DNA from: Nevskiales bacterium | GTDB taxonomy: Bacteria; Pseudomonadota; Gammaproteobacteria; Nevskiales; Nevskiaceae | Assembly (NCBI GenBank): GCA_028698335.1 | Contig: JAQVDP010000003.1 | Location: 1-49,249 of the forward strand | Reading direction: 5' to 3' | DNA length: 49,249 bases | Shown here: in pieces, positions 23,014 to 49,249 of the stretch | Layout: the number at the start of each line of letters is the position of its first letter | Numbering within the stretch: position 1 is the first letter of the stretch | The notes under the pieces: model-generated | What the model was told of the DNA's origin: nothing | The model's database searches: none | The model's input: the letters and a program-made list of their open reading frames with translations, nothing else | Program-made: the position numbers and the translations under genes

Positions 23014-25332
23014 GTGAATAACAAGACTCAGATCAGTGGGAAGTGGCCGGCGGTCACGCTGGCGGCGGCGTTCGCGGCCGTTGCCGGTGGCGCGCAGGCT
23101 TTCGAGGTCACCATCGCCGACACCAGTGTCCGCATCGACAATCTGGTGTCGATCGGCGGAATGCTGCGCATGCAGGAGCGCGACAGCAGCCTCGTCGGCA
23201 AGTCCAGCCTCAATCCGGGACTGTGCGTGCGTCGCGTATCGCCCGCGGGGGACGCGCCCGATCCGGGCGGTGACAATACGTTCGCTGGCGATACCTGCTC
23301 GGGGACGGTCGAGGACCCCGATTTCGGCAACCGCAACAATTACTTCGTGGCGCAGCCGGGCAGCTATCAGCCCAATGGCGACAACGGCAATCTCAACTTC
23401 GACAAATATGATGTCGTCCATGCCACGGCCAAGCTGACCACCGACGTCAATGTCGACCTGTTCGGCTTCAATGTCTTCGCCCGCGGTTTGTATTTCTTCG
23501 ACGCGCGCTACAGCGATTTCGAGGAGCGCCATCCGGATACGACGCTGCAGCCGTTCCGGACCGACTTTCCGCGTTCTGCGGAAAAAACCATCGGCAACGA
23601 TTTCAGGATGCTCGACTATTTCGTGAGCCGGACCTTCGAACTGGGGGATCGGCTGGTCAGCATCAAGCTCGGCAATCAGGCGCTCAACTGGGGCGAAAGC
23701 GCGTTTCTCGCGCTCAACAGTCTGAATACGGTCAACCCCCTGAACCAGGCACTGTTGCGCCTGCCGGGTTTCGATATCAAGGAGCTGTTCCTTCCGGTCG
23801 GGATGGCGACGATCAACGCGGACATCGCCGACGGCCTGAATCTGGAGATGTTCTACCAGTATGACTGGGAGCCCTTCGTCGTCGATCCCGTCGGCAGCTA
23901 TTTCTCGACGGCGGACATCCTCGGCGACGGCGGCACCTATGCGATGCTGTCATTCGGCAAGGCACCGGAGGATCCGCTCGAGCTGTACGAGCCGTGGCGC
24001 AATCCGGAAGACCCGGCGTCGGTGCTCGGGTCGACCTCCGATCGCACGATGCGGCGCAATTTCGACGAGGAACGCCGCCGCGCTCCCGACCAGGGCGGGC
24101 AGTACGGGGTCTCGCTCAAGGCCTATTTCGACAATTTCAACAACGGCACCGAGGTCGGGCTCTATTTCGCCAACTACCACTCGCGCATTCCGAGTGTCTC
24201 GATTCTGGCGGCGGACGCGACCTGCATTCCGGATCAGGCCCTGACCGGATCGATTCCGGTGCTCGGCAATGCGCTCGATGCGCTGCTTGGCAGCCTGCCG
24301 ACGCAGACCGCGCTGAACGTGCTGGGCCTGATCGACCCGACCGGCTGCGGCGTGCCGGCGACCAATCTGCTCGCGGCAGCCGGCATTCCCGGGGTCGAGC
24401 TGCAGCCGTCGACCGGCGCGCGTGATCCGCTGCCGGTGGGGTCGATCCAGTATTTCGCCGAGTACCCGGAAGACGTGCACGTCTACGGCATCTCGTTCAA
24501 CACCCTGCTCGGTGAGATCGCATGGTCCGGCGAGTACGCGTTCCGCGACAACCTGCCGGTGCAGATCCACATCACCGACCTGGTCTTCGCGGGTCTGCAG
24601 CCGGCGTTTCCGGCGCAGGATTTCAGCCTCGAACCGATCGCCACGCTGCCCGGGCGTCGCACCGCAGTGCCGGATTTCACCTCGGTCTATCGCGGCATCG
24701 AGTACGGCCCCGGCGACTACGTGCGCGGCTACGAGCGCATGAAGGTCGGCCAGCTCGGCACCACCTTCATCAAGACCATCGGCGGCGACAACCCGATCGG
24801 TGCCAGCCAGATCGTGCTGCTGCTGGAACTGGGGATGACCCAGGTGTTCGATATGCCGGACATCGATCAGCTGCAGTTCCAGGGCGCGGGCGTCAATACG
24901 CATGTTTCGGGCGGCGCCGACGGAACGGTGGGGATCAATCCGGTGGACGTGCGTACCGATCCAAATGATCGGAACAGCAATGGATCGGATCCCAACCTGC
25001 GCCAGAATCCGACGGCACATCCCGACCTGGCCGGATTTGGCACCGCGATTTCCTACGGGTATCGTTTCGTCACTCTGACCAAGTTCGATAGCGCGTTCTA
25101 CGGCATCAACATCGAACTGCTCAACGCCTTGTTTCACGACGTCGAAGGGGTTGCGCCGGGGCTTGGGCAAAACTTCGTCGAGGGACGCAAGCAGATCATC
25201 TCCGGTCTGCGCTGGGATTACCTGTCGAAATACAACGGCGAGCTTCGCTACACCTGGTTCACCGGTCCGCATGCCCGAAACTCCGCGCATGATCGCGACA
25301 ACTTGCTGATTTACTTTGGTTATCAGTTTTAA
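23014..25332 (+). CDS. DUF1302 family outer-membrane protein
   Basis: A 772-residue DUF1302 protein. These proteins are predicted outer-membrane beta-barrels often encoded with DUF1329 and RND/MMPL genes; their cargo is not established. The GTG start at 23014 gives a signal peptide ending near GGAQAFE. The mature protein has DUF1302 features: DNLVSIGGMLRMQERD, VDLFGFNVFARGLYFFDARY, IKLGNQALNWGES and the C-terminal strand LRYTWFTG..., ending in aromatic YFGYQF as in outer-membrane barrels. Insertions rich in Asp, Asn and Cys (about 70-115 and 400-480) look like extracellular loops. It overlaps the next start by one base (TAATG), so they are coupled. Confidence 0.85.
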   Translation: MNNKTQISGKWPAVTLAAAFAAVAGGAQAFEVTIADTSVRIDNLVSIGGMLRMQERDSSLVGKSSLNPGLCVRRVSPAGDAPDPGGDNTFAGDTCSGTVEDPDFGNRNNYFVAQPGSYQPNGDNGNLNFDKYDVVHATAKLTTDVNVDLFGFNVFARGLYFFDARYSDFEERHPDTTLQPFRTDFPRSAEKTIGNDFRMLDYFVSRTFELGDRLVSIKLGNQALNWGESAFLALNSLNTVNPLNQALLRLPGFDIKELFLPVGMATINADIADGLNLEMFYQYDWEPFVVDPVGSYFSTADILGDGGTYAMLSFGKAPEDPLELYEPWRNPEDPASVLGSTSDRTMRRNFDEERRRAPDQGGQYGVSLKAYFDNFNNGTEVGLYFANYHSRIPSVSILAADATCIPDQALTGSIPVLGNALDALLGSLPTQTALNVLGLIDPTGCGVPATNLLAAAGIPGVELQPSTGARDPLPVGSIQYFAEYPEDVHVYGISFNTLLGEIAWSGEYAFRDNLPVQIHITDLVFAGLQPAFPAQDFSLEPIATLPGRRTAVPDFTSVYRGIEYGPGDYVRGYERMKVGQLGTTFIKTIGGDNPIGASQIVLLLELGMTQVFDMPDIDQLQFQGAGVNTHVSGGADGTVGINPVDVRTDPNDRNSNGSDPNLRQNPTAHPDLAGFGTAISYGYRFVTLTKFDSAFYGINIELLNALFHDVEGVAPGLGQNFVEGRKQIISGLRWDYLSKYNGELRYTWFTGPHARNSAHDRDNLLIYFGYQF

Positions 25333-26732
25333 TGATCAAACCGGCTTTATCTGCACGACGCTTGGATTGGATGGGGGGCGCGCTGTTGCTGGGCGTCATG
25401 GCGGCGTTGCCTGCGGCGGGCATCGCCAAGGTGGCGCCGGAGGCGGCAGCGCGGCTGGGCGGGGCGCTGACGCCGATCGGGGCGGAGCGGGCCGCCAGTG
25501 CCGACGGCGCGATCCCCGAATGGACCGGCGGGCTGCGCAGCCCGCCGCCCTGCTTTACGGCTGTGCAGGGCGGCGGGCAGGGCCGGTATTGCGATCCATT
25601 CGTCGGCGAGCAACCGCTGTTCACGATCACCGCCGCCAATGCCGGGCAGTACCGCGACCATCTCAGCGCCGGGCAGCTCGCGCTGCTGGAGCGGTATCCG
25701 GACAGCTACCGGATGCCGGTCTACCGGACCCGGCGCAGCTTCGCCAATCCGGACTTCATCTACGCGGCCACCGCCCGCAATGCGCTGAGTGCCACGCTCG
25801 ACCAGGGCGGCGAGGCGCTGGTCGATGCGGCCACCGGTATTCCGTTTCCGCTCCCGGAGACCGGGCGCGAGGTGATCTGGAACCATCGCACCCGCTATCG
25901 CGGGGTGGCCGTGCGGCGCTGGAACAACCAGTTCGCGGTGACCCAGTCCGGGGACTACAACCGCACCCGCTTTCGGGAGGACATCCTGTTCAACTACAGC
26001 GCGCCATCGGTAGACCCGAAGGCGCGTGGCGGCGTGCTGATGTATTTCCTGCAGGTCGCCACCGCACCGGAGCGGTTGGCCGGCTCGATTCTGTTGATTC
26101 ACGATTCCCTCGATCCGGGGGCGGAGCCACGGCAGGCCTGGCAGTTCAGCCCGGGGCAGCGGCGGCTGCGCAAGGCCCCCAACATCGGCTACGACAATCC
26201 GGGCATGGGGGCGGACGGATTGCGGACCAATGACCAGCTCGACACTTTCAGCGGCGGCATGGACCGGTACGAGTGGAAGCTGGTCGACAAACAGACCCTG
26301 TTCGTTCCGGCCAACAGCTATCGACTGCACAGCGGCGCGCTGCGATATCCGGACATCGTGCAGCGTAATCACATCGATCAGAACCTGTCCCGCTACGAGC
26401 TGCGCCGGGTCTGGGTCGTCGACGCCACGCTCAAGGCCAATGCGACGCATCAGTACCGGCGCCGGCGCTTCTACGTCGACGAGGACGGCTGGCAGATCCG
26501 GGTCGTCGACATCCATGACGCCCGCAATCAGCTCTGGCGTGTGCAGGAGACCCATACGGTGATGGCCTACGACCGGCTCTATGAGCTGCCCGTTTGCGAA
26601 ACGGTGTACGATTTACAGAGCGGCCGTTATCTTGTGCAAGCACTCAACAACGAAGATCCGGAGACCGCAGAGGCGTCGTTCGACGCCGAACACTTCAAAT
26701 CCAGCAGTGCCTCGAAGCTCGCCAAGGAGTGA
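25332..26732 (+). CDS. DUF1329 family periplasmic/outer-membrane protein
   Basis: A 466-residue DUF1329 protein with a signal peptide (about residues 1-32). The family's N-terminal signature is visible: LTPIGAERAASADGAIPEWT at about residues 46-65. The remainder is a long beta-rich region with many Tyr/Arg motifs (RYDRLYEL-type strands). From memory, DUF1329 is grouped structurally with the LolA/LolB/LppX lipid-carrier fold, which would suit a lipid shuttle working with an RND pump; a structure prediction would test this. The start overlaps the DUF1302 stop by one base. Confidence 0.85.
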   Translation: MIKPALSARRLDWMGGALLLGVMAALPAAGIAKVAPEAAARLGGALTPIGAERAASADGAIPEWTGGLRSPPPCFTAVQGGGQGRYCDPFVGEQPLFTITAANAGQYRDHLSAGQLALLERYPDSYRMPVYRTRRSFANPDFIYAATARNALSATLDQGGEALVDAATGIPFPLPETGREVIWNHRTRYRGVAVRRWNNQFAVTQSGDYNRTRFREDILFNYSAPSVDPKARGGVLMYFLQVATAPERLAGSILLIHDSLDPGAEPRQAWQFSPGQRRLRKAPNIGYDNPGMGADGLRTNDQLDTFSGGMDRYEWKLVDKQTLFVPANSYRLHSGALRYPDIVQRNHIDQNLSRYELRRVWVVDATLKANATHQYRRRRFYVDEDGWQIRVVDIHDARNQLWRVQETHTVMAYDRLYELPVCETVYDLQSGRYLVQALNNEDPETAEASFDAEHFKSSSASKLAKE

Positions 26733-26833
26733 GACGGGGTGGAATTTCGTATCGGATCGGGTGCTCACTCACGCCGGGCGATCAAAGAGAGGACCATGCG
26801 GGGCGCGCTCTGCGCAGCCACCAGGGGGTAGCA

Positions 26834-27817
26834 ATGAAGTCGAATAATCACATGTGGCAGACCGTGGTATTGGCTGCTGCGATCGGATTCAGTTGTGTCG
26901 CAACGGCACAGGACGACGCGGGCGGCGAAGTCGAGACAGTCGTCAAATCCCTGCCGTCGGAACTGATGCCGCTGACGCCCCAGAGCCTGCTGCTGGATGT
27001 GGTCAACACCGGCGAACATCTGATCGCGGTGGGGGACCGCGGCGCCATCATCGTGTCCAACGACGGCCGCCAGTGGGCCCAGGTCCAGACGCCGACCCGG
27101 TCGGCCCTGACGGCGGTCGACTTCGTGGACGCCAAGAACGGATGGGCGGTGGGCCACGATGCGGTGATCCTGCATACCGCCGACGGCGGGCGGACCTGGT
27201 CGCTGCAGAACTTCGAGCCCGAGCTGGAGAAGCCGTTCCTGGACGTGCTGTTCCTGGATCCGCAGCGCGGTCTGGCGGTCGGCGCCTACGGCCTGCTGTA
27301 TGCGACGAGCGACGGCGGTCAGACCTGGAGCGACGTCGAGACGCCGATCCGCGAGGACGAATGGCACTTCAACGCCATCGTGCGCCTGAACGACGGCAGC
27401 ATCCTGATCGCGGGTGAAGCCGGAACCCTGGCGCTGTCGGAAGACGATGGCGCGACCTGGACCGCACTGACCTCGCCGTACGAGAGCTCGTACTTCGGCG
27501 CGGTCGCCCTCGGCGACAAGGGGGCGGTGCTCTATGGCCTGCGCGGCAATGTCTTCGTCAGCGACGACGTCCGGTCCGGTGAGTGGCGCGAGGCGCAGAC
27601 CGGATCGGTCGCGACCATGTTCGGGGACGCCCGCCTGGATGACGGGCGCGTGGTCATGGTCGGCCTCAACGGCAACGTCATGGAGACCGATGCCGCCCTG
27701 GAGGATGTGAAGATCATCAAGTCCAAGGCCGGAACCCCGCTGTCTGCCGCCATCGAGTTCGGTGGCGAGCTGCTCGCGGTCGGCGAGTCCGGCGTACAGC
27801 ACATCCGCATTCCGTAA
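26834..27817 (+). CDS. YCF48-related beta-propeller protein, exported
   Basis: A 327-residue exported protein. The ATG at 26834 has a strong AGGGGGT site and gives a signal peptide ending CVATAQ. The rest is repeated BNR/YCF48-type blades: LLDVVNTGEHLIAVGDRGAI, GWAVGHDAVILHTADGGRTW, GLAVGAYGLLYATSDGGQTW and AGEAGTLALSEDDGATW. Each carries the Asp-box-like SxDGGxTW. Such proteins are regularly found between DUF1329 and MMPL genes and may be an envelope assembly factor for the pump; this role is inferred. The 101 bp before it holds no other gene that I can see. Confidence 0.82.
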   Translation: MKSNNHMWQTVVLAAAIGFSCVATAQDDAGGEVETVVKSLPSELMPLTPQSLLLDVVNTGEHLIAVGDRGAIIVSNDGRQWAQVQTPTRSALTAVDFVDAKNGWAVGHDAVILHTADGGRTWSLQNFEPELEKPFLDVLFLDPQRGLAVGAYGLLYATSDGGQTWSDVETPIREDEWHFNAIVRLNDGSILIAGEAGTLALSEDDGATWTALTSPYESSYFGAVALGDKGAVLYGLRGNVFVSDDVRSGEWREAQTGSVATMFGDARLDDGRVVMVGLNGNVMETDAALEDVKIIKSKAGTPLSAAIEFGGELLAVGESGVQHIRIP

Positions 27818-27863
27818 GTCGGGGCCTCCCCGACGGTACAAACAGAATCAGGGAGCACAGCTG

Positions 27864-30437
27864 ATGGCTGGCAAATCAATGTTTTCTCAGGACAAGATCC
27901 TCGCGGTCGTCGAGCCGATCGTCTACGGCAAGCGCATGCTGATGCTGGCGCTGCTCGGCCTGCTGACCGCGCTGTTCGCGTGGTTCGCGGCCGGGACCCA
28001 TGTCGATGCCGGGTTCGACAAGTCGATCCCGCTTGAGCACCCGTACATGCAGGTGCTCAAGCAGTACGAGGACGATTTCGGCGGCGCCAACACGATCCTC
28101 GTGGCCTTGATCCAGAAGGACAAGTCCCATGACATGTACAACGAGCACTTCCTGAGCAAGCTCAAGGCTGTCACCGACGAAGTGTTCTTCCTGCCGGGCA
28201 TCGACCGTTCGCGCGTGTCCTCGCTGTTCACCCCGGACGTCCGTTTCATCGAGGTCGTCGAAGGCGGCTTCGCCGGCGGGAACGTCATCCCGGCCGAGTA
28301 CCAGCCCACCGAGCACTACTTCAATCTGGTGCGCGCGAATGTCGGCAAGGGTGGCCACGTCGGCCGTTACACGACCAAGGACCAGCGTGGCGCGATGGTC
28401 TTCGCGGAGCTGCTGGAGGTCGATCCGATCACCGGCAAGCGGCTCGACTACCGCGAAGTCGCCAAACAGCTCGAGGAAAAGATCCGCCAGCAGTATCAGG
28501 ACGATCAGGTCGACATCCACATTCTCGGGTTCGCCAAGGTCATCGGCGACGTCACCGATGCCGCCAACGAAGTCGTGATGTACTTCTTCGTCGCCCTGGC
28601 GATGACCTTCGTGCTGCTGGTGCTGTATCTGGGCAGCTTCAAGATGGCCGTGCTGCCGCTGGTATGTTCGTTCATCGCGGTGATCTGGGAGTTCGGGCTG
28701 CTGACCGCGAGCGGCTACGGTCTGGATCCGTTCGCGATCCTGGTTCCGTTCCTGATCCTGTCGGTGTCGGTGTCGCACGGCGTGCAGTACACCAGTTCCT
28801 GGGTGCATGAGCTGGCGGCCGGCAAGAACAGTTACGACGCGTCGCTGGAAACCTTCCGCCGCCTCGCGATTCCGGGTACCACCGCGCTGATCACCGATCT
28901 GGCCGGCTTCCTGACGATCCTGCTGATCCCGATCGACATCATCCGCGAGATGGCGATCAACGCGTCGTTCGGAATGGCCGCGATCATCGTGACCAACAAG
29001 ATCCTGATGCCGATCTGGCTGACGTACACCCACGTCAAGAACGTCGAGGAGTTCGTCCGCAAGCAGGAGGCGCGCGAAGCGGCGCTCAATCCGATCTTCC
29101 GTGCGATGACGGTGGTGACGCGTCCGGTGCCGGCCGCCGTCGTCATCATCGCGGTCGCCCTGCTGTACGGCTGGGCGAGCTGGAAGGGCGAGGGCATGCT
29201 GTACGGGGATTCGCAGGCGGGTGTCCCGGAGCTGCGTCCGGAGTCGCGCTACAACAAGGACACCGAAGCGGTCGTCAACAACTTCGCGATCGGGACCGAC
29301 ATCCTCAAGGTCATCGCCGAGACCGATCCCGAGGCCTGCATCAAGTACGACGTGATGGAGCAGATCGACCGCTTCACCTGGCACATGGACAATCTGCCGG
29401 GCGTACAGTCGACCCTGTCGCTGCCGGGGATCGCCAAGCAGGTCAATTCGGCGTTCTCCGAGGCGGCGCCCAAGTTCCGCGTGCTGCCGCGCAACCAGTA
29501 CGTGATGGTGCAGGCGATCACACCGGTGCCGACGTCGTCGGGGCTGCTCAACCCGAACTGCTCGGCGATGGCGCTGTTCCTGTTCACCGAGGATCACAAG
29601 GCGGTAACGATCGATCGCATCACCGACGCGGTCAAGCAGTTCAACGCCGACAATGCCGCGTCCTGGTTCGAGCTGAACAAGGGGGTCGACGCGGGCTACT
29701 GCGAGGACAAGCTGGCTGCCCGTCGCCAATGGGGCGATCTGCGGCTGCAGCTGAAGAACCGCCAGGCCATGCTCAAGGGACTCGACTACAAGGACACCGA
29801 GGTCGACGCGGATCCGGGCGTGCTTGATCTGCGCAAGCAGATCGACGAGGCCAAGACGAAATGGGACGGTTATTCGAAGCCGTGTCCGGTCAATTTCGCG
29901 CTGGCATCCGGCAACGTCGGCGTCATGGCGGCGTCCAACGAAGTCGTGCATGCCAAGGACAAGCCGATCGTCTACTACGTCTACGCGGTGATCATCGTGT
30001 TCCTGTGGCTGTCGTTCCGCAACGCCGCTGGTGTGCTCTCGATCCTGGTGCCGCTGTACGTGGTGTCGTCCCTGATCCTTGCGCTGATGACAATCAAGGG
30101 CATCGGCATGAAGGTCGCCACCTTGCCCGTTGCGGCCCTGGCCGTCGGGATCGGCGTCGACTACGGCATCTACATCTACTCGACGATCGAAGAGTTCGTG
30201 AACAAGGGCAAGAGCCTGGCCGACGCCTACTACGAGACGCTGCGGCTGACCGGCAAGCCGGTCATGTTCACCGGTCTGGTGCTGTCGGGTTCGGTCGCCA
30301 CCTGGCTGTGGTCGGGACTGCAGTTCCAGGCTGACATGGGCCTGCTGCTGATGTTCGCGTTCTTCGCCAACATGATCGGCGCGGTGCTCGTCTGCCCGGC
30401 GATCTGCCGCTATCTGATGAAGCTGCCGCACGGTTGA
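27864..30437 (+). CDS. MMPL/RND family transporter
   Basis: An 857-residue inner-membrane transporter of the RND superfamily, MMPL/hydrophobe-exporter type. It has TM1 at about 24-43, then a large periplasmic loop, a five-TM block (about 235-400) and a second loop. The second TM set (about 705-850) includes the proton-relay Asp in VGIGVDYGIYIYSTIEE. The first block contains ITDLAGFLTILLIPID. The ATG at 27864 has a GGGAG site; the upstream in-frame extension overlaps the YCF48 gene. Likely substrates are lipids or other hydrophobic molecules (family knowledge). It ends the first plus-strand module; a strong terminator follows. Confidence 0.88.
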   Translation: MAGKSMFSQDKILAVVEPIVYGKRMLMLALLGLLTALFAWFAAGTHVDAGFDKSIPLEHPYMQVLKQYEDDFGGANTILVALIQKDKSHDMYNEHFLSKLKAVTDEVFFLPGIDRSRVSSLFTPDVRFIEVVEGGFAGGNVIPAEYQPTEHYFNLVRANVGKGGHVGRYTTKDQRGAMVFAELLEVDPITGKRLDYREVAKQLEEKIRQQYQDDQVDIHILGFAKVIGDVTDAANEVVMYFFVALAMTFVLLVLYLGSFKMAVLPLVCSFIAVIWEFGLLTASGYGLDPFAILVPFLILSVSVSHGVQYTSSWVHELAAGKNSYDASLETFRRLAIPGTTALITDLAGFLTILLIPIDIIREMAINASFGMAAIIVTNKILMPIWLTYTHVKNVEEFVRKQEAREAALNPIFRAMTVVTRPVPAAVVIIAVALLYGWASWKGEGMLYGDSQAGVPELRPESRYNKDTEAVVNNFAIGTDILKVIAETDPEACIKYDVMEQIDRFTWHMDNLPGVQSTLSLPGIAKQVNSAFSEAAPKFRVLPRNQYVMVQAITPVPTSSGLLNPNCSAMALFLFTEDHKAVTIDRITDAVKQFNADNAASWFELNKGVDAGYCEDKLAARRQWGDLRLQLKNRQAMLKGLDYKDTEVDADPGVLDLRKQIDEAKTKWDGYSKPCPVNFALASGNVGVMAASNEVVHAKDKPIVYYVYAVIIVFLWLSFRNAAGVLSILVPLYVVSSLILALMTIKGIGMKVATLPVAALAVGIGVDYGIYIYSTIEEFVNKGKSLADAYYETLRLTGKPVMFTGLVLSGSVATWLWSGLQFQADMGLLLMFAFFANMIGAVLVCPAICRYLMKLPHG

Positions 30438-30464
30438 GCGGCGGCGTCAGGACGATGACTCGAG

Positions 30465-30493
30465 AACCCCGCGGCAACGCGGGGTTTTTGTTT
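30465..30493 (+). terminator. Rho-independent terminator after the MMPL gene
   Basis: A 9-bp stem (30465-30473 with 30478-30486), GCAA loop and a T-rich tail (TTTTTGTTT). It separates the DUF1302-MMPL module from the TolC-like gene. Confidence 0.92.
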
Positions 30494-30517: not shown

Positions 30518-30546
30518 ACGACACTGCCGTCCGATTTATCCATAAT
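30518..30546 (+). promoter_or_regulatory. Candidate sigma-70 promoter of the TolC/HlyD/sulfotransferase unit
   Basis: ACGACA (30518-30523, 4/6), a 17-nt spacer and CATAAT (30541-30546, 5/6), just after the terminator and about 140 bp before the TolC-like start. The leader 30547-30687 shows no other feature I can support. Confidence 0.5.
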
Positions 30547-30687
30547 GCAGCCGGGGACTACATCGTGATGATTGCGGTTGGCGCATCCCGGCGATCGCGT
30601 GGAGCGTGCGCGTGCCGTTCCTGCCGTCCGGCGAGGCCGAGCCGGTCGTTTGCGGTCGAGCCGCCGAAACGCACTGAGGAAAGCAAG

Positions 30688-38969: not shown

Positions 38970-39758
38970 TTATTCCGGGTGTGCAAAGAACAGGGGCGAT
39001 TCGAGTTTGTCGACGGTCAGCTGACCGGCCTTGGCACCGACCCGATATGTTTCCGGGACGAGCGCCTGAAGTTCGCCGTCGGCCAGCTTCTGCTCGTAGA
39101 AATCGAGCGTTGCCTCGACGTTGCTGTAGTCGACCTGGCGTTTGAACGGCGCCAGATCGTAGCGCCACCATTGTAGTTTCAAAAAACGTTCGACGATGTT
39201 GTCGGCGAAGCGCAGCCGGATCACGCGCGCCGGCGCGCCCACGGCAATCGCGTAGGGGGGGATGTCGCGGGTCACGACGCTGCGTGCGCCGATCGCGGCG
39301 CCGTCACCGATGGTCACGCCGCGTTTGACGAAGCTGCCGGCGCCGACATAGGCCTCGTGCCCGATGTAGGTGTCGTTGGGCTGCGCCTCGACCCATGACG
39401 GACCGGCGTCGGCGTCCGGCGCCAGGCGTTCGAAGTCCGGGATCTGGTACAGACCCGGCATGTAGTGCGGGCGCGTGAACGCGAACATGTGGCTGGAGAA
39501 CCAGTCCATCGGATGTTCCGGCGGTCCGATGATCGAGGACTCGCCGATCTGGGCGTAACGACCGAAGTGCACGCGGAAGGCGCTGGTCATGCCGGCGGCG
39601 TTGAAGAAGGTGAACGCGCCGGCCGTGCAGTCCTTGAGCCGGTGCCCGTGGATCCAGGCCGGTCGCTCGTAGGTCAGGGACCCCACGAGCAACCGGCCGT
39701 CGGTCACCAGACCGTGTTCCGTCAGTGCCTCGGCTGTGATTCTGGAAGGCTCTGTCAT
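38970..39758 (-). CDS. CatB-like hexapeptide-repeat acyltransferase
   Basis: A 262-residue left-handed beta-helix acyltransferase of the CatB/xenobiotic acetyltransferase kind. Hexapeptide turns are seen in [20 protein letters not shown] and [20 protein letters not shown]. The family closing signature is [20 protein letters not shown]. The likely catalytic His is in the [13 protein letters not shown] loop. It would acylate a hydroxyl or amine, using acetyl-CoA or an acyl-ACP; the ACP gene 8 bp downstream makes the latter possible. Acceptor unknown. Confidence 0.84.
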
Positions 39759-41414: not shown

Positions 41415-44400
41415 TCAGGCGACGGATTCGATCCGTTGATCGGCGCGCGCGGGAACGATGCAGAGCGCGCAGATTTCATCGATGGAGAAGTAGAGGCGGA
41501 CATCGTAGTCGTGGCCGTCATGGCGCACGCGCACGCGCGAGTTGTGAGCGTCGCGGCGGTCGAGTTCGGCGCTGACGATCGTCCAGTCGTGTGGACGCCC
41601 CATCAGGCCGGTCCCGGCCGCCTTCGATGCCGCTTCCTTGGCGCACCACAGCGCCACGGCGATGCGCAGGCGTTCGGCCTCCGACGCCGAGGCGGGAATC
41701 AGGCGGCGCTCCAGGTCGGTGAAGGCACCGGCACTGAGCTTGTCGGGATCGATGTCCTCGAGCCGCTGATAGTCGAGGCCGAGCGACTGTCCGGGCGGGA
41801 CCACCGCGGCCACTGCCCAATGGCGGCTGTGGCTGATCGACAGTTGCGGAATCGCCAGATTCTGCAGGGCCGGACAGATGATCTGCGGCGCGCCCTGCAC
41901 ATCGTTGGCGATCTCGATGTCGGCATCGGCGACTTCGACCCCCTTGGCGGCCGCCCACTCGCGTACCGCTTCCTTGGCCGCGATCCGGCCCATCAGCCAT
42001 TCCTCGCGACGGGGACCGGTGACGGGCAGTGCGTAGAACTGACGGCGCTCCGACTGATTGAGCACCATGTGGGCGAGCATGCGCTTCCAGATGGCGCCGC
42101 CTTCGTCGAGGAAGTGCTGTGCGAACGGTTCCATACGCCGGACCAGCAGGCCTTCCGGCAGCTCCCGCTCCAGCCAGCGCTGGGTCATGTACTCGCGCAG
42201 CGGATGGATCCGGAAGTTGTAGAGCCGCTTCGGCACCGCGAACTTGCGGTCCTCCCAGCCATCCGCGCGCATCAGCAGGCGGCCGTCGGGGCCGATGATG
42301 TCGAAGCGTGCCTCGAGAATGTTCTCGTCGGTGAAGCGCAGGTCGCCGCGGCAGATGCAGCGGCTGCCCGCCGGTGGCGGCGGTGCGAACAGCGTGAAGC
42401 GGGCCAGACGGAACGGGAAGCAGTTGAAACCCCAGGTGTGCTTCTCGGTCAGCCAGTAGCCCGCGAGCTGTCCGGCGGCGTCGAGCATCGCCGCGTCGAG
42501 CTGGAACTGCGGCGAGCGGGTGAAGCTGAAGTAGTCGTGGGTCGGAATCGCTTCGAGATCGGCCTCGATCGATTCGCTGCCCCAGCGGCGGACGTGCTTG
42601 ACACCCTGCAGGCGCGGGCCGTGAAACATGCCGTGGCTGTAGAGTTCGCCGTCCGGATTGTTGACCGGTGGATACTCGTCGTCCGACGACCACGGATACG
42701 GCTCCGGCGGCGCGGTGTAGGCGGCCGCGAGAACGACGGTGCCTTCGAACACCAGGAGTCCGCCCTTCGGGCCGGCGCCCTGCATGAAGATACGGACGCT
42801 GATGCGTTGCTCCTGCGCGTTCGACGACTCGCGTTCGGTGACAATGCGCAGGTCGACGCTGTCGTCGTCGAGCGACAGCCAGCGGTTGCCGCGGGCCTGT
42901 TCGATCGCGATCACCTTGAGGTCCGGGCGTGCGGCCATCTGCATCGCCGCCTCGGCCAGGATCTCCATGCTGAAGGTGAACGGAATCACCGCGATCGGCA
43001 GCAGGTGCGGGTTGCGGGCCGACGGTGCGCCGCCGATGGTGTGGTCGCGCAGGAACCAGTCGCGTTCCAGGGTGAAGCGGCGGGCGATGACCATGCGCTG
43101 ATCCGTCTGCTCGACGACCTTGCCGAGCATCGGGAAGCGGGCGGCCGGATCGACGACCGCGGGCGGGGCCGCCGTGGCCGGGACGGGCGGCATCGCGCCC
43201 GCCGCAGCCGGCTGCGGTGTGGCGCCGGTCAGCCCGAGCACACGCGCCTGGCTGTCGAGGAAGTCCTGCATCAGCGAGAAGTGCGACTGCAGCACGCCGA
43301 GTCGTGGATCGGAGGGCGCCGATGGTGCCGTCGGCGCCGCTGCGACGGCGCCTGTCGCGGCGGCAGGCGTTGCCGGGGCCGGGGCGGGTGCGGCGGCCTG
43401 GGGCAGCGCCGGGACCGGCAGGTCCTTGGGCCAGTGCACCTTCGGCATCATCAGATTCAGATGCGGCTTCGGCTTGGCCGGCTCCGGAACCGCGTCCAGA
43501 TCCACCGCCTCGATCTCGCGGAACGCGAACAATTGGGTCGGGTCGAGCGGAACACCGATCGCGTAGAGCTGCGCCAGCGCATGCTGCAACTGGGCGATGC
43601 CGGACTTGCGACGGCTGTTGGTCGCGACCGCGACCACGTCATCGAGGCCGCGCAGGGCGTCGCCGACGAAGGAGGTCAGGTTGCCGCTGGGGCCGGCTTC
43701 GACGAAGACCCGGAAGCCGTCGTCGTACATGCGCCGCAGCGTGTCGGTGAAGCGCACCCGGCTTTCCCACTGCTGGGCGACCAGCTCGCGAATCGCGTCG
43801 GGATCTTCGGGGAACGGGCCCGCGCTGCAGGCACTGTAGAGCTGCGCGATGCCCGGACCGAATCCGATCTCGGCGAAATAGCTGCGATAGGCATCGGCGA
43901 TCGGCCTGAACAGCGCGGTGTGGTAGGCACGGCCGAACGGCAGCTCGACGCAGATCGCGCCCTCCGCGGACAGCTCCTCGCGCAGTGCGGCGATGCGCTC
44001 GCGTTCGCCGAACAGCACCAGCTGGTTCGGGCAGTTGTCCATCGCAACCTGGATCTGGCCATCGGCGCGGGCCAGCAAAGCCTCCCGCTGCGGCGCCTTC
44101 AGGGCGCCGACGGTCAGCAATGCGCCTTCGACGATGCGGCCCTGCTCGTCCAGCTCGCGATAGATGCGGTTGAGATCGCGGATCGTCGTGGCGATCTCGC
44201 TCAGATCGTCGAACCGGCGCACGCGCGAAGCGGTCAGTGCGGTGTTCTCGCCGGTGGAGTGGCCGAGCATCGCATCCGGCTGGATGGCCAGCGACTGCAG
44301 CACCTCGAACAGCGCCATGCTGGCGGTGAACACGGACTCGGCGCCGTAGTCCATCTCGTGCAGCTGTGCGTCGAGTGCCTCACGCGTCTGCGCGCTGATT

Positions 44401-46286
44401 GCGGTCGGCACCGGGAAGATGACCGGTGCGCGCGGACTGCGGCCATCGCCGTCGGCGGTCTGTTCGAGGAAGTCGAACCATGCGCGTGCCTGCGGAAAAT
44501 GCACGCAGACATCGGCGAGCATGTTCGGATACTGGGCGCCCTCGCCGGGGAACAGCACACAGACCTTGCCCGGCTGCGCGCCCTGGCCGTAGTACAGGCC
44601 GCCGCGCGTCTTGAACGAGCCGGCATCGGAGCTGCGCAGTTTCTCTGCGGCCTGATCGAGACGCTTGAGCAGGTCGTCGCGATCCGCCGCGACGATCGCC
44701 AGGCGGTGGTCGCCATCGGCGTGTTCGGCGCAGTAGCGGGCGATCGCACTCAGCGGGGCGCGGTCGTGCTTCTCGATCTGGCGTCCCAGCGCCGCGACGC
44801 GCTGGAGCAGCGCCTCGCGGGTTGCGGCCGCGACCACGACCAGCTCGGACTCGCTCGGCGCATGCAGCACCGGCACCTGTACGCGCGGGTCGCGCGGTCG
44901 GTATTCCTCGAGGATCGCGTGCGCGTTGATGCCGCCGAAGCCGAAGGCGTCGACGCCGGCTCGGCGCGGAACCTTGCCGCCATGCACCCAGGGGCGGGTC
45001 TCGTTGTTGATGTAGAACGGCGTCTTCTCGAGCTCGAGTTCGGGCGCCGGTTCGTCGCACAGCGTCGGCGGCAGCACTTTCTGATGCAGCGCCAGCGCCG
45101 TCTTGATCAGGCTTGCGCCACCGGAGGCCGGAATGGCATGGCTGATCATCGATTTGATCGAGCCCAGCGCGATCGTCGGCAGCTCGCCGCGGCGTGCGCC
45201 GAAGACTTCCGACAGCGACCGGACTTCGGTGCGGTCGCCCAGCGCGATCCCGGTGGCATGTGCCTCGATCAGGCCCAGCGAATGGGGATCGATGCCGCAG
45301 GACTCATAGGCCCGGCGCAGCGCCACCATCTGGCCTTCCGGCCGCGGCGCGAACAGGCCCTTGGCCTTGCCGTCGCTGGCGACGCCGATGCCCTTGATGA
45401 CCGCGTAGATCCGGTCGCCATCGGCCTCGGCATCCTCGAGTCGCTTGAGTACGAACACGCCGCAGCCTTCGCCGAGCAACGTACCGTTGGCGCCTTTCTG
45501 GAACGGCCGGATCTTGTTGCGGGCCAGTGCGTTGATCTGCGAGAAGATCATGTACGTCTGCGCCGGCGTCTGCGCATGCACGCCGCCGGTCAGCATGATG
45601 TCGCAGCGGCCCGAGCGCAGCTCCCGCACCGCATGCTCGACCGCGACCAGGGTCGAGGCGCAGGCCGCGTCGACGATGTAGTTCGGCCCCATCAGGTCGA
45701 GGCGGTTGGCGATGATGCCGGTGGTGATGTTCGGGATCAGGCCCGGAAGAATCTCGGGATTGAACGGCGGCAACTGTGCCCGCAGGCCGTCACGCAGTGC
45801 ATCGAGTTCCTTGTCACCGAAATCCGGACGGACCTTGGCCACCAGCTCGAGCATCTGGTCGAGCATGCTGCCGTGGAACATCAGGTTCGCAGCGCCGCGG
45901 TTGGTGTTGTTGCCGCGGCCGAGGACGATGCCGGCCCGTTCGTGGTCGAACGGCTTGTCGAGATAGCCGGCGTCGGCCAGCGCGTCGCGCGCGTTCTTCA
46001 GCGCCAGGAAATGGTCCGGCTCGCGCCCGTCGACGGCATTGGGCATGACGCCGAATTCGCGGGGATCGAACTCCGCCAGATCGTGCAGCCAGCCGCCCTT
46101 GGCGGTGTAGATCCGGTTCGGTTCGCGCGAGTTCGCATCCAGATACGGCTCGGCCCACTCCGGCGTCGCATCGGTGACCGCGTAGACCTTGTTCAGGACG
46201 TTCTGCCACAGACGCACGGCACTACCGGCGCCGGCGTAGTTGCCGGCCATGCCGATGATGGCGATGTCGAGTGATTCTGACGACAT
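41415..46286 (-). CDS. Type I synthase: KS-AT-DH-phosphopantetheinyl transferase
   Basis: A 1623-residue multidomain synthase of PUFA-synthase-like type. KS (about 5-470) has Cys209 in VDAACASTL, His343 in EAHATGIALGD and His383 in KSMISHAIPASGG, so the triad is present although the EAHGTG motif is altered. AT (about 575-900) has VCVLFPGEGAQ and Ser677 in GHSTGE. An Ala/Pro-rich linker (960-1045) follows. The hotdog DH has His1082 in RDHTIGGA and Asp1269/Gln1273 in DAAMLDAAGQ. The C-terminal Sfp-type PPTase (about 1420-1610) has GLDYQRLED and WCAKEAASKA. It has no ACP or KR, so it must act on ACPs of the adjacent synthase (5 bp upstream) or the stand-alone ACP. Confidence 0.92.
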   Translation of the reverse strand: MSSESLDIAIIGMAGNYAGAGSAVRLWQNVLNKVYAVTDATPEWAEPYLDANSREPNRIYTAKGGWLHDLAEFDPREFGVMPNAVDGREPDHFLALKNARDALADAGYLDKPFDHERAGIVLGRGNNTNRGAANLMFHGSMLDQMLELVAKVRPDFGDKELDALRDGLRAQLPPFNPEILPGLIPNITTGIIANRLDLMGPNYIVDAACASTLVAVEHAVRELRSGRCDIMLTGGVHAQTPAQTYMIFSQINALARNKIRPFQKGANGTLLGEGCGVFVLKRLEDAEADGDRIYAVIKGIGVASDGKAKGLFAPRPEGQMVALRRAYESCGIDPHSLGLIEAHATGIALGDRTEVRSLSEVFGARRGELPTIALGSIKSMISHAIPASGGASLIKTALALHQKVLPPTLCDEPAPELELEKTPFYINNETRPWVHGGKVPRRAGVDAFGFGGINAHAILEEYRPRDPRVQVPVLHAPSESELVVVAAATREALLQRVAALGRQIEKHDRAPLSAIARYCAEHADGDHRLAIVAADRDDLLKRLDQAAEKLRSSDAGSFKTRGGLYYGQGAQPGKVCVLFPGEGAQYPNMLADVCVHFPQARAWFDFLEQTADGDGRSPRAPVIFPVPTAISAQTREALDAQLHEMDYGAESVFTASMALFEVLQSLAIQPDAMLGHSTGENTALTASRVRRFDDLSEIATTIRDLNRIYRELDEQGRIVEGALLTVGALKAPQREALLARADGQIQVAMDNCPNQLVLFGERERIAALREELSAEGAICVELPFGRAYHTALFRPIADAYRSYFAEIGFGPGIAQLYSACSAGPFPEDPDAIRELVAQQWESRVRFTDTLRRMYDDGFRVFVEAGPSGNLTSFVGDALRGLDDVVAVATNSRRKSGIAQLQHALAQLYAIGVPLDPTQLFAFREIEAVDLDAVPEPAKPKPHLNLMMPKVHWPKDLPVPALPQAAAPAPAPATPAAATGAVAAAPTAPSAPSDPRLGVLQSHFSLMQDFLDSQARVLGLTGATPQPAAAGAMPPVPATAAPPAVVDPAARFPMLGKVVEQTDQRMVIARRFTLERDWFLRDHTIGGAPSARNPHLLPIAVIPFTFSMEILAEAAMQMAARPDLKVIAIEQARGNRWLSLDDDSVDLRIVTERESSNAQEQRISVRIFMQGAGPKGGLLVFEGTVVLAAAYTAPPEPYPWSSDDEYPPVNNPDGELYSHGMFHGPRLQGVKHVRRWGSESIEADLEAIPTHDYFSFTRSPQFQLDAAMLDAAGQLAGYWLTEKHTWGFNCFPFRLARFTLFAPPPPAGSRCICRGDLRFTDENILEARFDIIGPDGRLLMRADGWEDRKFAVPKRLYNFRIHPLREYMTQRWLERELPEGLLVRRMEPFAQHFLDEGGAIWKRMLAHMVLNQSERRQFYALPVTGPRREEWLMGRIAAKEAVREWAAAKGVEVADADIEIANDVQGAPQIICPALQNLAIPQLSISHSRHWAVAAVVPPGQSLGLDYQRLEDIDPDKLSAGAFTDLERRLIPASASEAERLRIAVALWCAKEAASKAAGTGLMGRPHDWTIVSAELDRRDAHNSRVRVRHDGHDYDVRLYFSIDEICALCIVPARADQRIESVA

Positions 46287-46291
46287 GGCGA

Positions 46292-49249
46292 TTACCGGTG
46301 CCCGGCGAGGCGGTTCAGCGCCGCGCTCATCGTGCCTTCGAGCTGGAGCATTTCGAGCCGGACGCGTCCGTTGCGGTCAATGAACCACGCGTCGTAGACC
46401 ACGGCGTTGTCGTGCGGTGCCGAGCGCATGCGCAGCGCCAGGCGCAGCGGGCCCTCGGCGTTGCCGGCATAGCGGCGCACACTGCCGAATGCGGCCGGGA
46501 GCGCGGTCATCTCATGGTTGACGCGAGACCAGACGATCGCCAGCTGCGGCGGGACGTCCATGAGTCCCGGATCGAACAGCCACTCGCCGTCCCGTCCCAG
46601 CCATGCATTGACCGACGACGGTTGCACGGTGGCATCGATGCCGGATTCGGAGACGCCGTCGATGGCGGTGACCAGCTGGAAGCGCTCGCCGTGGAACAGA
46701 TAGTCGGCATAGGCCTGTTCGGCGGAGACCGTCTTGGCATCCTGCAGCGCGGCGATGGTGGGGGCCAAAGGCGCCTCCGGCAGCTGCTGGACCAGCACCA
46801 CGGTGGCGCGATAGGCCGGCAGCTTGCGTGCCGCATCGATGATCTCGACGGTGACGGCCTGACTGCCGGCGTCGGAATGGGACGACGCCCGGGCCCGCAG
46901 CTGGATGCCGCGGCCCTGGTCACTGTCCAGGACGATGCCGTTGAACATGCGCATGTCCTTGACCTCGGAGACGATCCAGCCCGGCCAGGCGGCGGAGGCG
47001 AACTCCGCCATCCATTCGGCTGCGCCCGCTGCCGGCAGGACCGGCTTGTCATCGAGGCGGTGGTCCATCAGGTACGGATCGCTGTCCACCGTCAGGCGGT
47101 GATCGAGCGTCATCGAACCGCCGGGGCCGATACGCGGCGCCATCCGGATCAGCGGAAGTTCGGTGGCCTCGTCGTCGTCGCCGCTGACGCGCGGCGGAGC
47201 CTGTTCCAGGCCCCAGGTGCCGCGGCCCGCGACCAGCTCGACTTCGTGGCGTGGCCCGAGTTCGAGTTCCTCGCGGAACATGCGGCGTCCCGCCGCGACC
47301 GGAATCGGGTCGATGCCGCGCTCGCGGAAAGCCTGTTTGACCGCCTCGCTGGCCATGCCGGCGTCCCACGGTCCCCAGTTGATCGAGATGACGCGGGTAT
47401 CGGACCAGCGATGCTGCAGGTCCCAGGCCATCCGGTTGAGGGTTTCATTGGCCGCGGCATAGTCGCTCTGGCCGCGGTTGCCGTAGCGGCCGGCAACCGA
47501 GGTGAACAGGGCAAGACACTTCAGCGACTCGGGGCGTAGCTTGCGACTCAGGACGAAGGCCGCATCCAGCTTGGTCGACAGGACGCGCTCGAACGATTCG
47601 GCGGTCTTGTCGGCCAGCAGCTTGTCCTCGATCACGCCGGCGCCGTGGATGGCCAGGTCGATGCGGCCGAGCCGGTCGTAGAGGTCGTCGATCAGCTGGC
47701 CGAACACGGCTTCGTCGCGAACGTCGCAGGCGACGTAGTCGACCTGCGCACCGGCGCTGCGCATGCGCTGCAGGTTGGCCCGGATCTCGCGATTGGCGCG
47801 CAGGCGGGCGATGTCACGATCGATCTCCGCCGGCTTCGGCTTGCGGCCGGCGCTGAGTTCGGTCGCGATCAGGGCCTTGCGCAGAGCGTTGGTGTCGTCG
47901 ATGCCGGAGGTTTCGGCGCCTTCGGGCGCAGGCTCGGCGCTGCGTCCCAGCAGCACCAGACGCATCCCCGGCTTGATCAGCTCCTCGATGATCTCGGCGG
48001 TGATGCCGCGGGCGCCGCCGGTGGCGAGGACGACCCAGTCGGCCTCCGGCGTCAGATGCGGCGAGAACGGACTGTCGGTGAGCGGCCGTTCGACCGTGGT
48101 CGAGCCAAGGCGGTCGGTATCGGCGTAGCCGACTTCCGGCTCATTGGCCTGGGCGCAGAGTTCGGTGTGGAGCAACTCGGCGATCGTTGCGTCGTCCTGG
48201 CCGTCGAAATCGACGCTGCGCATGACGCTGTCCGGGAACTCGTGGCGCAGGCAGTTGGTGATGCCCACGACGCCGCCGGCGGTGATCGAGCCGGTTCCCA
48301 TCGTGTCGCGCCCGAAGGTGCCGCCGAGGCGCGTTGCGGCGATCAGCCGCACCGTGCGGATGTCGTCGCCGAGCGCCTGGGCCGTATGGAACAGGCTCAA
48401 CAGGTTGCGCCGGTACTTTTCCCGCCATTCGTCGAGCGACTCGGCGGTCGCCTCCGACAGACCGTGCAGGTGTGCCACGGTGCGGACCGGGCCATGGGCC
48501 TCGCGCGCCGCGGCAATCTGCTGACGGATCGCATCCGGTTCGTCGGCGGTGATCGACACGACGACCGCGCCGTCGCCGCGCAGGCGTTCGGTCAGCGCTG
48601 CAGTGATCGGATCGGGGCCGCCCAGCAACAGCGTCAGGCCGGACAGCGTGACGCGCTCGCCGGACAGCGGCGCCGGGGTCGGAATCAAGGCGTAACGCGG
48701 AATCGATTCGGCCGCCGCCGGAGCCGCCACCGGCGTTGCCGGGGAGACCGCGGCGGGCATCGCTGCCGCTGCGATATCGCTGCCGGATTCAAGCTTCCCC
48801 ATTTCGGCGAGGATCGCGTTGAGCGACTTGGCGCGGGTGAAGCGCTCCATCGCGCCCTGGACGGTGTTGCCGAGATCGCCGGGCATGGCCTTCTGGAAGG
48901 CGCCGAGGATCTCGACCCGCTTGATCGAATCGATACCGAGGTCGGCTTCGAGATCGGCGTCGAGGCCGAGCATGTCCTCGGGGTAGCCGGTGCGCTCGGC
49001 GACGATGCCCAGCAGCAGACCCTTGAAGTCGATCGCGGCAGCCGGGGCTGCGGCAACGGCGGTCACCGGAGCGGCGGTCGCGGCCGGAGCGGCGACGGTC
49101 GGAGCCAGCGCCTGGACTTCGGCGAGGATCGCGTTGAGCGACTTGGCGCGGGTGAAGCGTTCCATCGCGCCCTGGACGGTGTTGCCGAGATCGCCGGGCA
49201 TGGCCTTCTGGAAGGCGCCGAGGATCTCGACCCGCTTGATCGAATCGAT
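46292..49249 (-). CDS. PfaA-like synthase, C-terminal part: ACP-ACP-KR-DH (partial)
   Basis: The gene enters from the right edge; 985 residues are visible and the N-terminus is missing. Two tandem ACPs come first: the edge cuts the first at IDSIKRVEILGAFQKAMPGD, and the second has its Ser at codon 48926-48928 in DLGIDSIKRVEILG, the PUFA-synthase ACP signature. An Ala/Pro linker follows. The KR has an N-terminal structural subdomain, TGGARGIT (visible residues 411-418), Ser584 in FTSVAGRYG and Tyr597 in SDYAAANE. The C-terminal DH has His730 in MDHRLDDKPVLP and Asp898 in FDPGLMDVPPQ. A KS-AT front end would be expected beyond the edge, as in PfaA. It ends 5 bp before the second synthase. Confidence 0.9.
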   Translation of the reverse strand: MDSIKRVEILGAFQKAMPGDLGNTVQGAMERFTRAKSLNAILAEVQALAPTVAAPAATAAPVTAVAAAPAAAIDFKGLLLGIVAERTGYPEDMLGLDADLEADLGIDSIKRVEILGAFQKAMPGDLGNTVQGAMERFTRAKSLNAILAEMGKLESGSDIAAAAMPAAVSPATPVAAPAAAESIPRYALIPTPAPLSGERVTLSGLTLLLGGPDPITAALTERLRGDGAVVVSITADEPDAIRQQIAAAREAHGPVRTVAHLHGLSEATAESLDEWREKYRRNLLSLFHTAQALGDDIRTVRLIAATRLGGTFGRDTMGTGSITAGGVVGITNCLRHEFPDSVMRSVDFDGQDDATIAELLHTELCAQANEPEVGYADTDRLGSTTVERPLTDSPFSPHLTPEADWVVLATGGARGITAEIIEELIKPGMRLVLLGRSAEPAPEGAETSGIDDTNALRKALIATELSAGRKPKPAEIDRDIARLRANREIRANLQRMRSAGAQVDYVACDVRDEAVFGQLIDDLYDRLGRIDLAIHGAGVIEDKLLADKTAESFERVLSTKLDAAFVLSRKLRPESLKCLALFTSVAGRYGNRGQSDYAAANETLNRMAWDLQHRWSDTRVISINWGPWDAGMASEAVKQAFRERGIDPIPVAAGRRMFREELELGPRHEVELVAGRGTWGLEQAPPRVSGDDDEATELPLIRMAPRIGPGGSMTLDHRLTVDSDPYLMDHRLDDKPVLPAAGAAEWMAEFASAAWPGWIVSEVKDMRMFNGIVLDSDQGRGIQLRARASSHSDAGSQAVTVEIIDAARKLPAYRATVVLVQQLPEAPLAPTIAALQDAKTVSAEQAYADYLFHGERFQLVTAIDGVSESGIDATVQPSSVNAWLGRDGEWLFDPGLMDVPPQLAIVWSRVNHEMTALPAAFGSVRRYAGNAEGPLRLALRMRSAPHDNAVVYDAWFIDRNGRVRLEMLQLEGTMSAALNRLAGHR
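48803..49249. repeat. Near-identical tandem ACP repeat, 315-bp period
   Basis: Bases 48803-48934 and 49118-49249 (132 bp each, the second cut by the edge) differ at one position that I can find (C versus T at 48845/49160). They encode the second half of successive ACPs. Between them the linker and first ACP half differ from what can be seen. Such identity points to recent duplication or gene conversion; more copies may lie beyond the edge. Confidence 0.92.

Follow-up and report, generated by a model that had tools for sequence, protein, structure and literature searches.

We analyzed a stretch of 49,249 nucleotides from a Nevskiales bacterium (the window; C16:1-49249 in a genome of 4.30 Mb and 44 contigs), in which plus-strand genes for candidate exporters precede a minus-strand operon of lipid/polyketide-type synthases. 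Our analysis leads us to favor, with confidence somewhat better than even, the reading that the genes from a TolC-type channel (30.6 kb) to a 271-aa protein of the alkaline-phosphatase (AP) superfamily beyond the window (C16:55.7 kb) form one specialized-lipid locus equipped with TolC/HlyD export of its own. The original prediction had joined two plus-strand export units and the synthases into a single system. This held for the TolC/HlyD unit, which co-occurs with the synthase and is found in other phyla as well, and was not well supported for the DUF1302/DUF1329/YCF48/MMPL unit, which occurs at the same site without the synthase in a genome of the same genus (G047).

Evidence for this reading comes from co-occurrence across the order. 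The export genes of the window, all on the plus strand, encode the TolC-type outer-membrane channel (30565..32082, likely start by sequence 30688), a HlyD fusion protein (32120..34456), a beta-propeller of 497 aa from an unnamed family (34453..35946) and a sulfotransferase-like protein (35943..36848, start by sequence), and the synthase with the domains ketosynthase (KS), acyltransferase (AT), dehydratase (DH) and phosphopantetheinyl transferase (PPTase) lies at 41415..46286 on the minus strand (synthase 2). We sampled 85 genomes of the order, 52 with and 33 without this synthase; G056 and G058, which the scan had counted among 54 synthase genomes, were excluded, as they hold only another KS (36-45%) of the polyunsaturated fatty acid (PUFA) type. 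The propeller was found in 51/52 synthase genomes, the HlyD fusion in 50/52 and the phosphodiesterase of the operon (39777..41378, minus strand) in 45/52, and none of the three in any of the 33 other genomes. In the 30 propeller loci inspected, the best of the 51 genomes, the HlyD fusion always adjoins the propeller and the sulfotransferase-like gene does so in 29. Propeller and KS are at most 20 kb apart in 34 of the 37 genomes with both on one contig, the genomes outside these 37 having them split over contigs or lacking one. Larger separations were seen in G045 (1.57 Mb), G041 (~43 kb) and G005 (~74 kb), and synthase and propeller lie on separate contigs in G039, G006 and G060. Since the co-occurrence is near exceptionless even when the genes are unlinked, we regard the TolC/HlyD-fusion/propeller/sulfotransferase-like unit and the synthase operon as one set. 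The gene arrangement is moreover syntenic in relatives and hence more than chance.

Several observations weigh against this reading. One synthase genome (G008) has neither propeller nor HlyD fusion, another (G029) has no HlyD fusion, and the phosphodiesterase is absent from G023 and, in families f4 and f5, from all six genomes that have the synthase. The Fisher p-values for the co-occurrence overstate independence, as the 85 genomes share ancestry; the pattern of losses is a better argument for one set than these values. The propeller search matched 14 of the 17 genomes reached via the synthase scan beyond the order, with no match in Fischerella PCC 9431, Pelatocladus and Loosdrechtia, and in the gammaproteobacterial genome G381 a sulfotransferase-propeller pair lies on a 15.9-kb contig that has no synthase. 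Because the structure model of the HlyD fusion is poor (pLDDT 58), the presumed direction of export rests on family resemblance. Finally, nine of the ten propeller genomes of the window's genus have a strong MMPL match at a distance of ~4 kb from the propeller, and all ten have a DUF1302/DUF1329/MMPL-type set near TolC (in G039, G040 and G048 the MMPL gene only, detected by search); in the tenth, G043, this is a distant paralogous set upstream of TolC with an MMPL protein 24% identical.

The last points also speak for an arrangement in which both export units and the synthase act as one machine and a sulfated lipid is exported with the MMPL protein. The MMPL gene stays beside TolC/HlyD in G041 and G045 though the synthase is elsewhere, and MMPL presence is associated with the synthase (51/52 synthase genomes versus 15/33 others), although in family f6 both are missing from 16 of 17 genomes. 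Because of the G043 set we raised our estimate for such a machine slightly and lowered that for the TolC-to-AP locus by the same small step. Against one machine stands G047, which has no synthase or propeller and carries the gene order NAD synthetase-bamD-rluD-pgeF-DUF1302-DUF1329-YCF48-MMPL-apaH-Tad-type genes; at this site, empty in G047, the window has the block from TolC to the 271-aa gene between MMPL and apaH. In G035, the quartet lies at the bamD site and the lipid block elsewhere. From these two gene orders it follows that the quartet (22963..30437, plus strand) is resident and the 25-kb block a unit. Outside the genus, where many genomes are fragmented, no MMPL match at E <= 1e-150 was found within 80 kb of the propeller, and the genes upstream of TolC differ in three loci of other genera (L074 of G035, L079 of G003, L080 of G060). 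Between quartet and TolC, folding gave a terminator-like hairpin with a T-run (30461..30490, plus strand; -23.4 kcal/mol, z -4.67), though a pattern scan for terminators reported 0, and the scan returned one promoter-like site (30518-30546, plus strand). On these grounds, and given the altered cofactor loop of the sulfotransferase-like protein described below, we consider one machine that exports a sulfated lipid unlikely. From the gene orders and the MMPL search we rejected the quartet as a member of the system, with the G043 set as a reservation.

The quartet consists by Pfam of DUF1302 (22963-25332), DUF1329 (25332-26732), YCF48 (open reading frame (ORF) 26594-27817) and MMPL (ORF 27762-30437), i.e. 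the gene families and order DUF1302/DUF1329/YCF48-like/HAE3-RND of AmeABCD from Castellaniella defragrans, which the part of the source available to us describes as a tetrapartite HAE3-type exporter tied to monoterpene tolerance (PMC6394551); the HAE3 model TIGR00921 gave 133 bits at a cut-off of 351.9. This likeness concerns the neighboring quartet alone and not the lipid locus. Most likely, the quartet is an Ame-like exporter in its own right that neighbors the lipid locus in this genus; within the genus, the MMPL protein may have a helper role. Within the genus, the MMPL proteins near the propeller unit (in G047 at the same site) fall into two types, one 78-88% identical to that of the window (G000, G041, G044, G045, G047) and one 58-61% identical (G039, G040, G042, G046, G048), and both occur near bamD/rluD/pgeF in the stretches examined (L067, L069-L072). 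The paralogous set of G043 (L073:385-9986) is accompanied by dehydrogenase- and FadL-like genes, as judged by eye.

The gene list of the original prediction was borne out by ORFs, coding bias and Pfam and NCBIfam matches on both strands, with DUF1302, DUF1329, YCF48, MMPL, TolC/OEP, HlyD fusion, the 497-aa protein and a weak Sulfotransfer_3 match in this order on the plus strand and a polyhydroxybutyrate (PHB)-type esterase, an alpha/beta-hydrolase, an acyl carrier protein (ACP), a hexapeptide transferase, a Phosphodiest protein, KS-AT-DH-PPTase and ACP-ketoreductase (KR)-DH on the minus strand. Extending the contig to the right, a check proposed at the time, revealed that the operon continues with an NMO(enoyl reductase, ER)-KS-AT-ACP part (C16:49063-54855; Pfam) and the gene of the 271-aa protein (C16:54898-55713), followed by apaH. 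Directly at the right end of the window lies a run of exactly 100 N (C16:49250-49349) with ACP copies on either side, so that the gap falls within tandem ACP repeats, and the reading frame is not the same left and right of it. In 38 of the 52 synthase genomes a single ORF of 2.7-3.3 kaa includes the proximal KS of synthase 1; the remaining 14, among them that of the window, have a shorter ORF, partly at contig ends. Given the gap, the frame change and the single long ORF of the 38 genomes, we attribute the split of synthase 1 to the assembly, and the ACP-KR-DH ORF (46292..49249, minus strand; Pfam) is best read as an assembly fragment, namely the C-terminal part of a larger synthase. In some cyanobacteria there are two genes, split behind the ACPs with an overlap of 4 nt (L012).

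A Cys motif and two His motifs were found in each KS and GHSxG in each AT (GHSTG in synthase 2), and KR and PPTase motifs are present (WCAKEAASK for the PPTase), all of which we presume to have their customary catalytic meaning. As its active-site Cys is kept, the distal KS is not a classical chain-length factor. The domains of Pfa-like secondary lipid synthases were all found (KS, ACP and KR, plus AT, DH, ER and PPTase), as were tandem ACPs, which flank the gap and give several tandem matches in relatives. A plain PUFA synthase that makes polyunsaturated fatty acids for the membrane would agree with the PfaA model TIGR02813 being the best NCBIfam match of all three synthase parts. These parts score 868, 620 and 371 bits, however, at a curated cut-off of 1010 bits, the Cys-bearing distal KS is not a typical chain-length factor, and conserved export partners are unnecessary for membrane lipids, which renders this alternative improbable. 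The mycobacterial Pks2/sulfolipid model NF041183 likewise remained far below its cut-off (289 and 355 versus 2400 bits). Among named relatives, Sinimarinibacterium sp. CAU 1509 came nearest in the synthase scan, at 73% over the KS-AT-DH-PPTase protein. Two further observations concern synthases of the order. G008, listed as 9% contaminated, has two equal-scoring synthase copies 203 kb apart (C1:27005-31858 and 230537-235390), perhaps through duplication in the assembly. Many genomes also have another PUFA-type cluster, distinct from the synthase of the window (ORFs of ~2.4 and 1.5 kaa, 36-45% to the KS-AT of the window; G039, G043, G049-G051, G053, G054, G056-G058 and others).

Beyond the order, the synthase scan matched cyanobacteria, Scalindua, Loosdrechtia, Myxococcota, Desulfobulbaceae and Acidobacteriota, and further Herpetosiphonaceae, Thermoleophilaceae, Nitrospinota and Poribacteria. 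A core of synthase, phosphodiesterase, alpha/beta-hydrolase and propeller is present in Scalindua, Trichocoleus, Thermoleophilaceae and two Myxococcota, and the same four genes were found in Herpetosiphonaceae, where the contig begins inside synthase 2; the core-bearing loci outside the order, Planctomycetota included, lie among L012-L028. Scalindua additionally has relatives of the HlyD fusion and the sulfotransferase, 29% identical each. The search for the gene set in other genomes, which had been suggested as a check, was thus successful, with propeller, HlyD fusion and synthase co-occurring in the order and recurring in other phyla. The propeller itself is rare (3/194 cyanobacteria and 5/369 Gammaproteobacteria, two of the five within the order). 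The new finds in G602, G109 and G290 have a synthase in the same stretch, and in G617 propeller, phosphodiesterase, hydrolase and sulfotransferase share a 10-kb contig. Phosphodiesterase matches were obtained in 7/194 cyanobacteria, only those of G087 and G109 at E below 1e-250; the five weaker ones (best E 1e-62 to 2e-89) are taken as other proteins of the nucleotide pyrophosphatase/phosphodiesterase (NPP) type, and G290, one of the three propeller-bearing cyanobacteria in this sample, gave no phosphodiesterase match.

We further compared the KS domains in a tree of 69 of the 75 KS rows (L090-L093, L098 and L099 were dropped, their genomes being included already). Within this sample, the proximal KS (21 rows) and the distal KS (29 rows) each form a clade with 100/100 support, and other Pfa-like KS of the same cyanobacteria stand apart (100/100); the branch linking these five rows to the NMO-fused clade is weak (80/58). 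The tree bears on the alternative of an Hgl-like pathway leading to long-chain 1,3-diols or to glycolipids analogous to heterocyte glycolipids. The hgl and hgl-like islands resemble the window in having related iterative type I fatty acid synthases/polyketide synthases (FAS/PKS) and export genes (hgdBC) in the island, and C24 diols are described for non-heterocytous strains that possess hgl islands (PMC11804610), a point in favor of this pathway, as are UDPGT-type glycosyltransferases in loci of Myxococcota (L022) and Herpetosiphonaceae (L026). Unlike in these islands, the proximal KS of the window belongs to a separate clade, in which KS identity to the window is 57-90% versus 46-48% for the other cyanobacterial Pfa-like KS, and the KS of the window lie outside the hgl-type clade, if the five comparison rows are of the hgl type as we presume. 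Neither the operon of the window nor its right-hand part gave a Pfam match to a thioester reductase or an hglT-type glycosyltransferase. We thus consider an Hgl-like pathway rather unlikely.

When compared to described systems, the window shares with the Pfa-like secondary lipid clusters of types A-T (Shulse and Allen 2011, PMC3098273) a small number of large genes that hold KS, AT, tandem ACPs, KR, DH, ER and PPTase, and with types M-T the P1a-like QGAP and P1b'-like LSISH motifs, as judged by eye. Going by the available parts of that paper, and in a comparison by text only, the window differs from these types by ER and PPTase being fused to the synthases N-terminally and C-terminally, respectively, and by its set with conserved propeller, HlyD fusion and phosphodiesterase; the words sulfotransferase and phosphodiesterase occur 0 times in the main text. 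The cyanobacterial PUFA-PKS family CF-3 (PMC4247773) is likewise a PUFA-like cluster of cyanobacteria, heterocystous ones among them, and the clades of its first two KS are apart from those of CF-1 (hgl); its description, in the sections available, includes no propeller or export set, and the main text has sulfotransferase 0 times. By analogy, the synthase of the window may be of the CF-3 type. Overall, we place the synthase among the Pfa-like secondary-lipid synthases; no description of the conserved accessory and export set was found in the portion of the literature searched.

Turning to the export proteins, the TolC-type channel matches PF02321 (167 bits) and TIGR01844 (254 bits, above cut-off). 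By motifs and hydropathy, the HlyD fusion combines an N-terminal region of ~7 hydrophobic helices and an NPxxxxDGY motif, which is M50-like, with a C-terminal HlyD/adaptor part. The original designation as an M50-like/HlyD fusion stands for the HlyD part (HlyD_3; TIGR01730 above cut-off); the other part is M50-like at most, since the sequence contains no HExxH of an M50 metallopeptidase, and a match to the daptide-metalloprotease model NF041824 is weak. The protein aligns to its C-terminus with cyanobacterial forms and matches the Scalindua form. Its gene overlaps that of the propeller by 4 nt (GTGA), as does the propeller gene that of the sulfotransferase-like protein (ATGA), which suggests translational coupling of the three genes. 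The assignment of the 497-aa protein as a beta-propeller is supported by an AlphaFold2 model (pLDDT 85.8, pTM 0.90), with which Foldseek retrieved generic propellers only (kelch designs, Keap1, GH43, Bub3), at a TM-score by query of <=0.45 among the 50 matches listed. The propeller has no Pfam or NCBIfam match, single-sequence and profile searches found no relative in the PDB, and a plasmid search gave no match. No signal peptide is seen by eye in the window's propeller, unlike in an acidobacterial one (L086:3984-6100), whose N-terminus looks signal-peptide-like. A fusion of phosphodiesterase and propeller in L086, suggested by the choice of the longest ORF, was discarded, as the phosphodiesterase match lies in another frame. 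The small genome of G381 has three propeller matches, on contigs C28, C125 and C105.

The sulfotransferase-like protein deserves separate consideration, as the original prediction envisaged a sulfated product. Its Sulfotransfer_3 match (25.5 bits) is below the Pfam gathering cut-off of 27 bits, and orthologues in L012, L115, L116 and L119 score 89-110 bits. Sulfotransferases using 3'-phosphoadenosine-5'-phosphosulfate (PAPS) presumably require a 5' phosphosulfate loop with Arg or Lys; in the window this loop reads LAPPFSGASF, with the 3' motif LRHP retained. The Arg is absent, with F, G, H, Y or D in its place, in 34 of 34 readable genomes of the window's family f1, and the loop is also altered in L076 of family f5. 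These 34 sequences come from L069-L072, L078 and all of the 30 loci L037-L066 except L061, in which the gene is absent (29 loci); L073, L074 and L079 were omitted, as their genomes are already counted. The alignment at the 3' motif is poor for L045, L063 and L065, and the Arg of this motif is also replaced in some others. A canonical PRS loop with Arg is kept by orthologues from a cyanobacterium, Scalindua, two other gammaproteobacteria and family f4 (L012, L087, L115, L116, L080). Since the Arg is absent in all 34, PAPS activity is improbable in the window's family, where the protein is probably not an active PAPS enzyme and probably a degenerate partner, judging from its motifs. A sulfated product is hence doubtful for this family; orthologues elsewhere in the system may really sulfate the product. 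An adenosine 5'-phosphosulfate (APS) kinase gene is present in the window's genome, and as it occurs in 79 of the 85 genomes, its co-variation with the synthase is uninformative; the APS kinase gene beside the Westiellopsis synthase (L012) is only suggestive.

Sulfation also underlies a further alternative. In CurM/Ols-like formation of terminal olefins, a beta-hydroxyl group is sulfated before thioesterase cleavage. Sulfotransferase and alpha/beta-hydrolase both recur with the synthase and could be assigned these two roles, with the hydrolase as the thioesterase. The altered loop in the window's family argues against such a terminal olefin, as does the coupling of the sulfotransferase-like gene to the propeller/HlyD unit and not to the hydrolase, and we regard this product as most improbable.

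The remaining genes of the operon encode predicted tailoring enzymes. The phosphodiesterase is of the NPP type within the alkaline-phosphatase superfamily, with a PF01663 match of 137 bits and with D9, T53, D221, H225, D280, H281 and H433 invariant in 12/12 aligned sequences, among which we presume the metal ligands and the nucleophile Thr. A profile search retrieved phosphonoacetate hydrolase and NPP structures, and no signal peptide was seen by eye. Formylglycine sulfatases have a Cys or Ser nucleophile in a CxPxR-type motif. The 271-aa protein reads SWT[SA]PSH, with Thr at the nucleophile place in five of seven sequences, those that cover the site, and was ruled out as a formylglycine sulfatase since Thr replaces Cys/Ser. 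On the minus strand further lie genes for a PHB-depolymerase-type esterase with a hydrophobic N-terminus (36839..37777; PF10503, NF050058 just under cut-off), an alpha/beta-hydrolase with GHSYG, a candidate thioesterase/acyltransferase (37791..38657; Pfam), a free ACP (38671..38961, start by sequence, the mechanical ORF being longer; PF00550) and a left-handed beta-helix (hexapeptide) acyltransferase (38970..39758; PF00132, with TIGR03308, CatB and Vat matches all under cut-off). Relatives of the alpha/beta-hydrolase adjoin the synthase in several phyla, and the free ACP is 31-72% identical to relatives from several phyla. The hexapeptide acyltransferase is present in the Nevskiales loci L007, L008, L010, L016, L018 and L025, and none was seen in the loci examined from other phyla.

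What the sequences themselves establish for the TolC-to-AP locus is its domain content, the catalytic motifs, co-occurrence, synteny, the empty site and the monophyly of the KS within the sample. From these we infer the following scheme, in which the length of the chain, the sequence of reactions, the head group, the place of the soluble proteins in the cell, the direction of export and every biochemical activity are predictions. Synthase 1, with its NMO-type enoyl reductase, KS, AT, tandem ACPs, KR and DH, and synthase 2 would form an iterative reducing type I FAS/PKS that converts malonyl units into a long acyl chain, the PPTase of synthase 2 arming the ACPs. The chain would pass to the free ACP and be released or transferred by the alpha/beta-hydrolase, and the NPP-type phosphodiesterase and the 271-aa protein, both presumably cytosolic, would complete the head group together with the hexapeptide acyltransferase. 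The HlyD-fusion membrane protein would then take over the amphiphile and deliver it via TolC to the outside of the cell, with propeller and sulfotransferase-like protein as its cytosolic partners.

Accessory genes vary by lineage. Besides the glycosyltransferases of L022 and L026, L022 has an extra sulfatase, L015 and L026 have sulfotransferases, L012 has the APS kinase gene beside the synthase, and in L015 a methyltransferase is fused to the propeller and a CoA-transferase is present. We take this variation to fit one core chain with changing head groups. More tentatively, the loci might represent a single, anciently spread class of exported lipids in Nevskiaceae, cyanobacteria, anammox planctomycetes, Myxococcota and others, which would be made by a distinct two-protein type I FAS/PKS, escorted by a new family of cytosolic propellers and released through the M50-like/HlyD fusion and TolC without an ABC or RND motor. 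The head group would be swapped by lineage, with sulfate in those that keep an intact PAPS loop, sugar in those with glycosyltransferases in the locus and perhaps acyl in Nevskiaceae, where the sulfotransferase would be a decayed pseudo-enzyme. That this set, with its intact synthase of two parts and an exporter of its own, is kept together in several phyla points to a conserved lipid, for which we found no structure in the literature searched. The boundaries of the set are sharply drawn by the empty site and by the co-occurrence table. The set also brings to notice a propeller family that has no name yet and a HlyD fusion in which no motor is obvious, and it provides an example of a sulfotransferase that loses its cofactor motif within a conserved operon.

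A few minor observations complete the analysis. A tandem-repeat finder detected no repeats in L005:1-4000. In Scalindua, the CoA-transferase, a family III protein, is encoded between hydrolase and propeller (L015:18958-21363), and the N-termini of proteins in L069, L079 and L118 resemble it by eye. In four lineages, a methyltransferase (Methyltransf_11) with the motif N-[YF]-G-[YF]-W close to its N-terminus is encoded in the vicinity of the locus (L087:6085-6924, L078:3463-4284, L085:12940-13773 and L088:10331-11188). Beside a Scalindua propeller, the products of L087:4117-6075 and 7139-9055 look by eye like B12-binding radical SAM enzymes.

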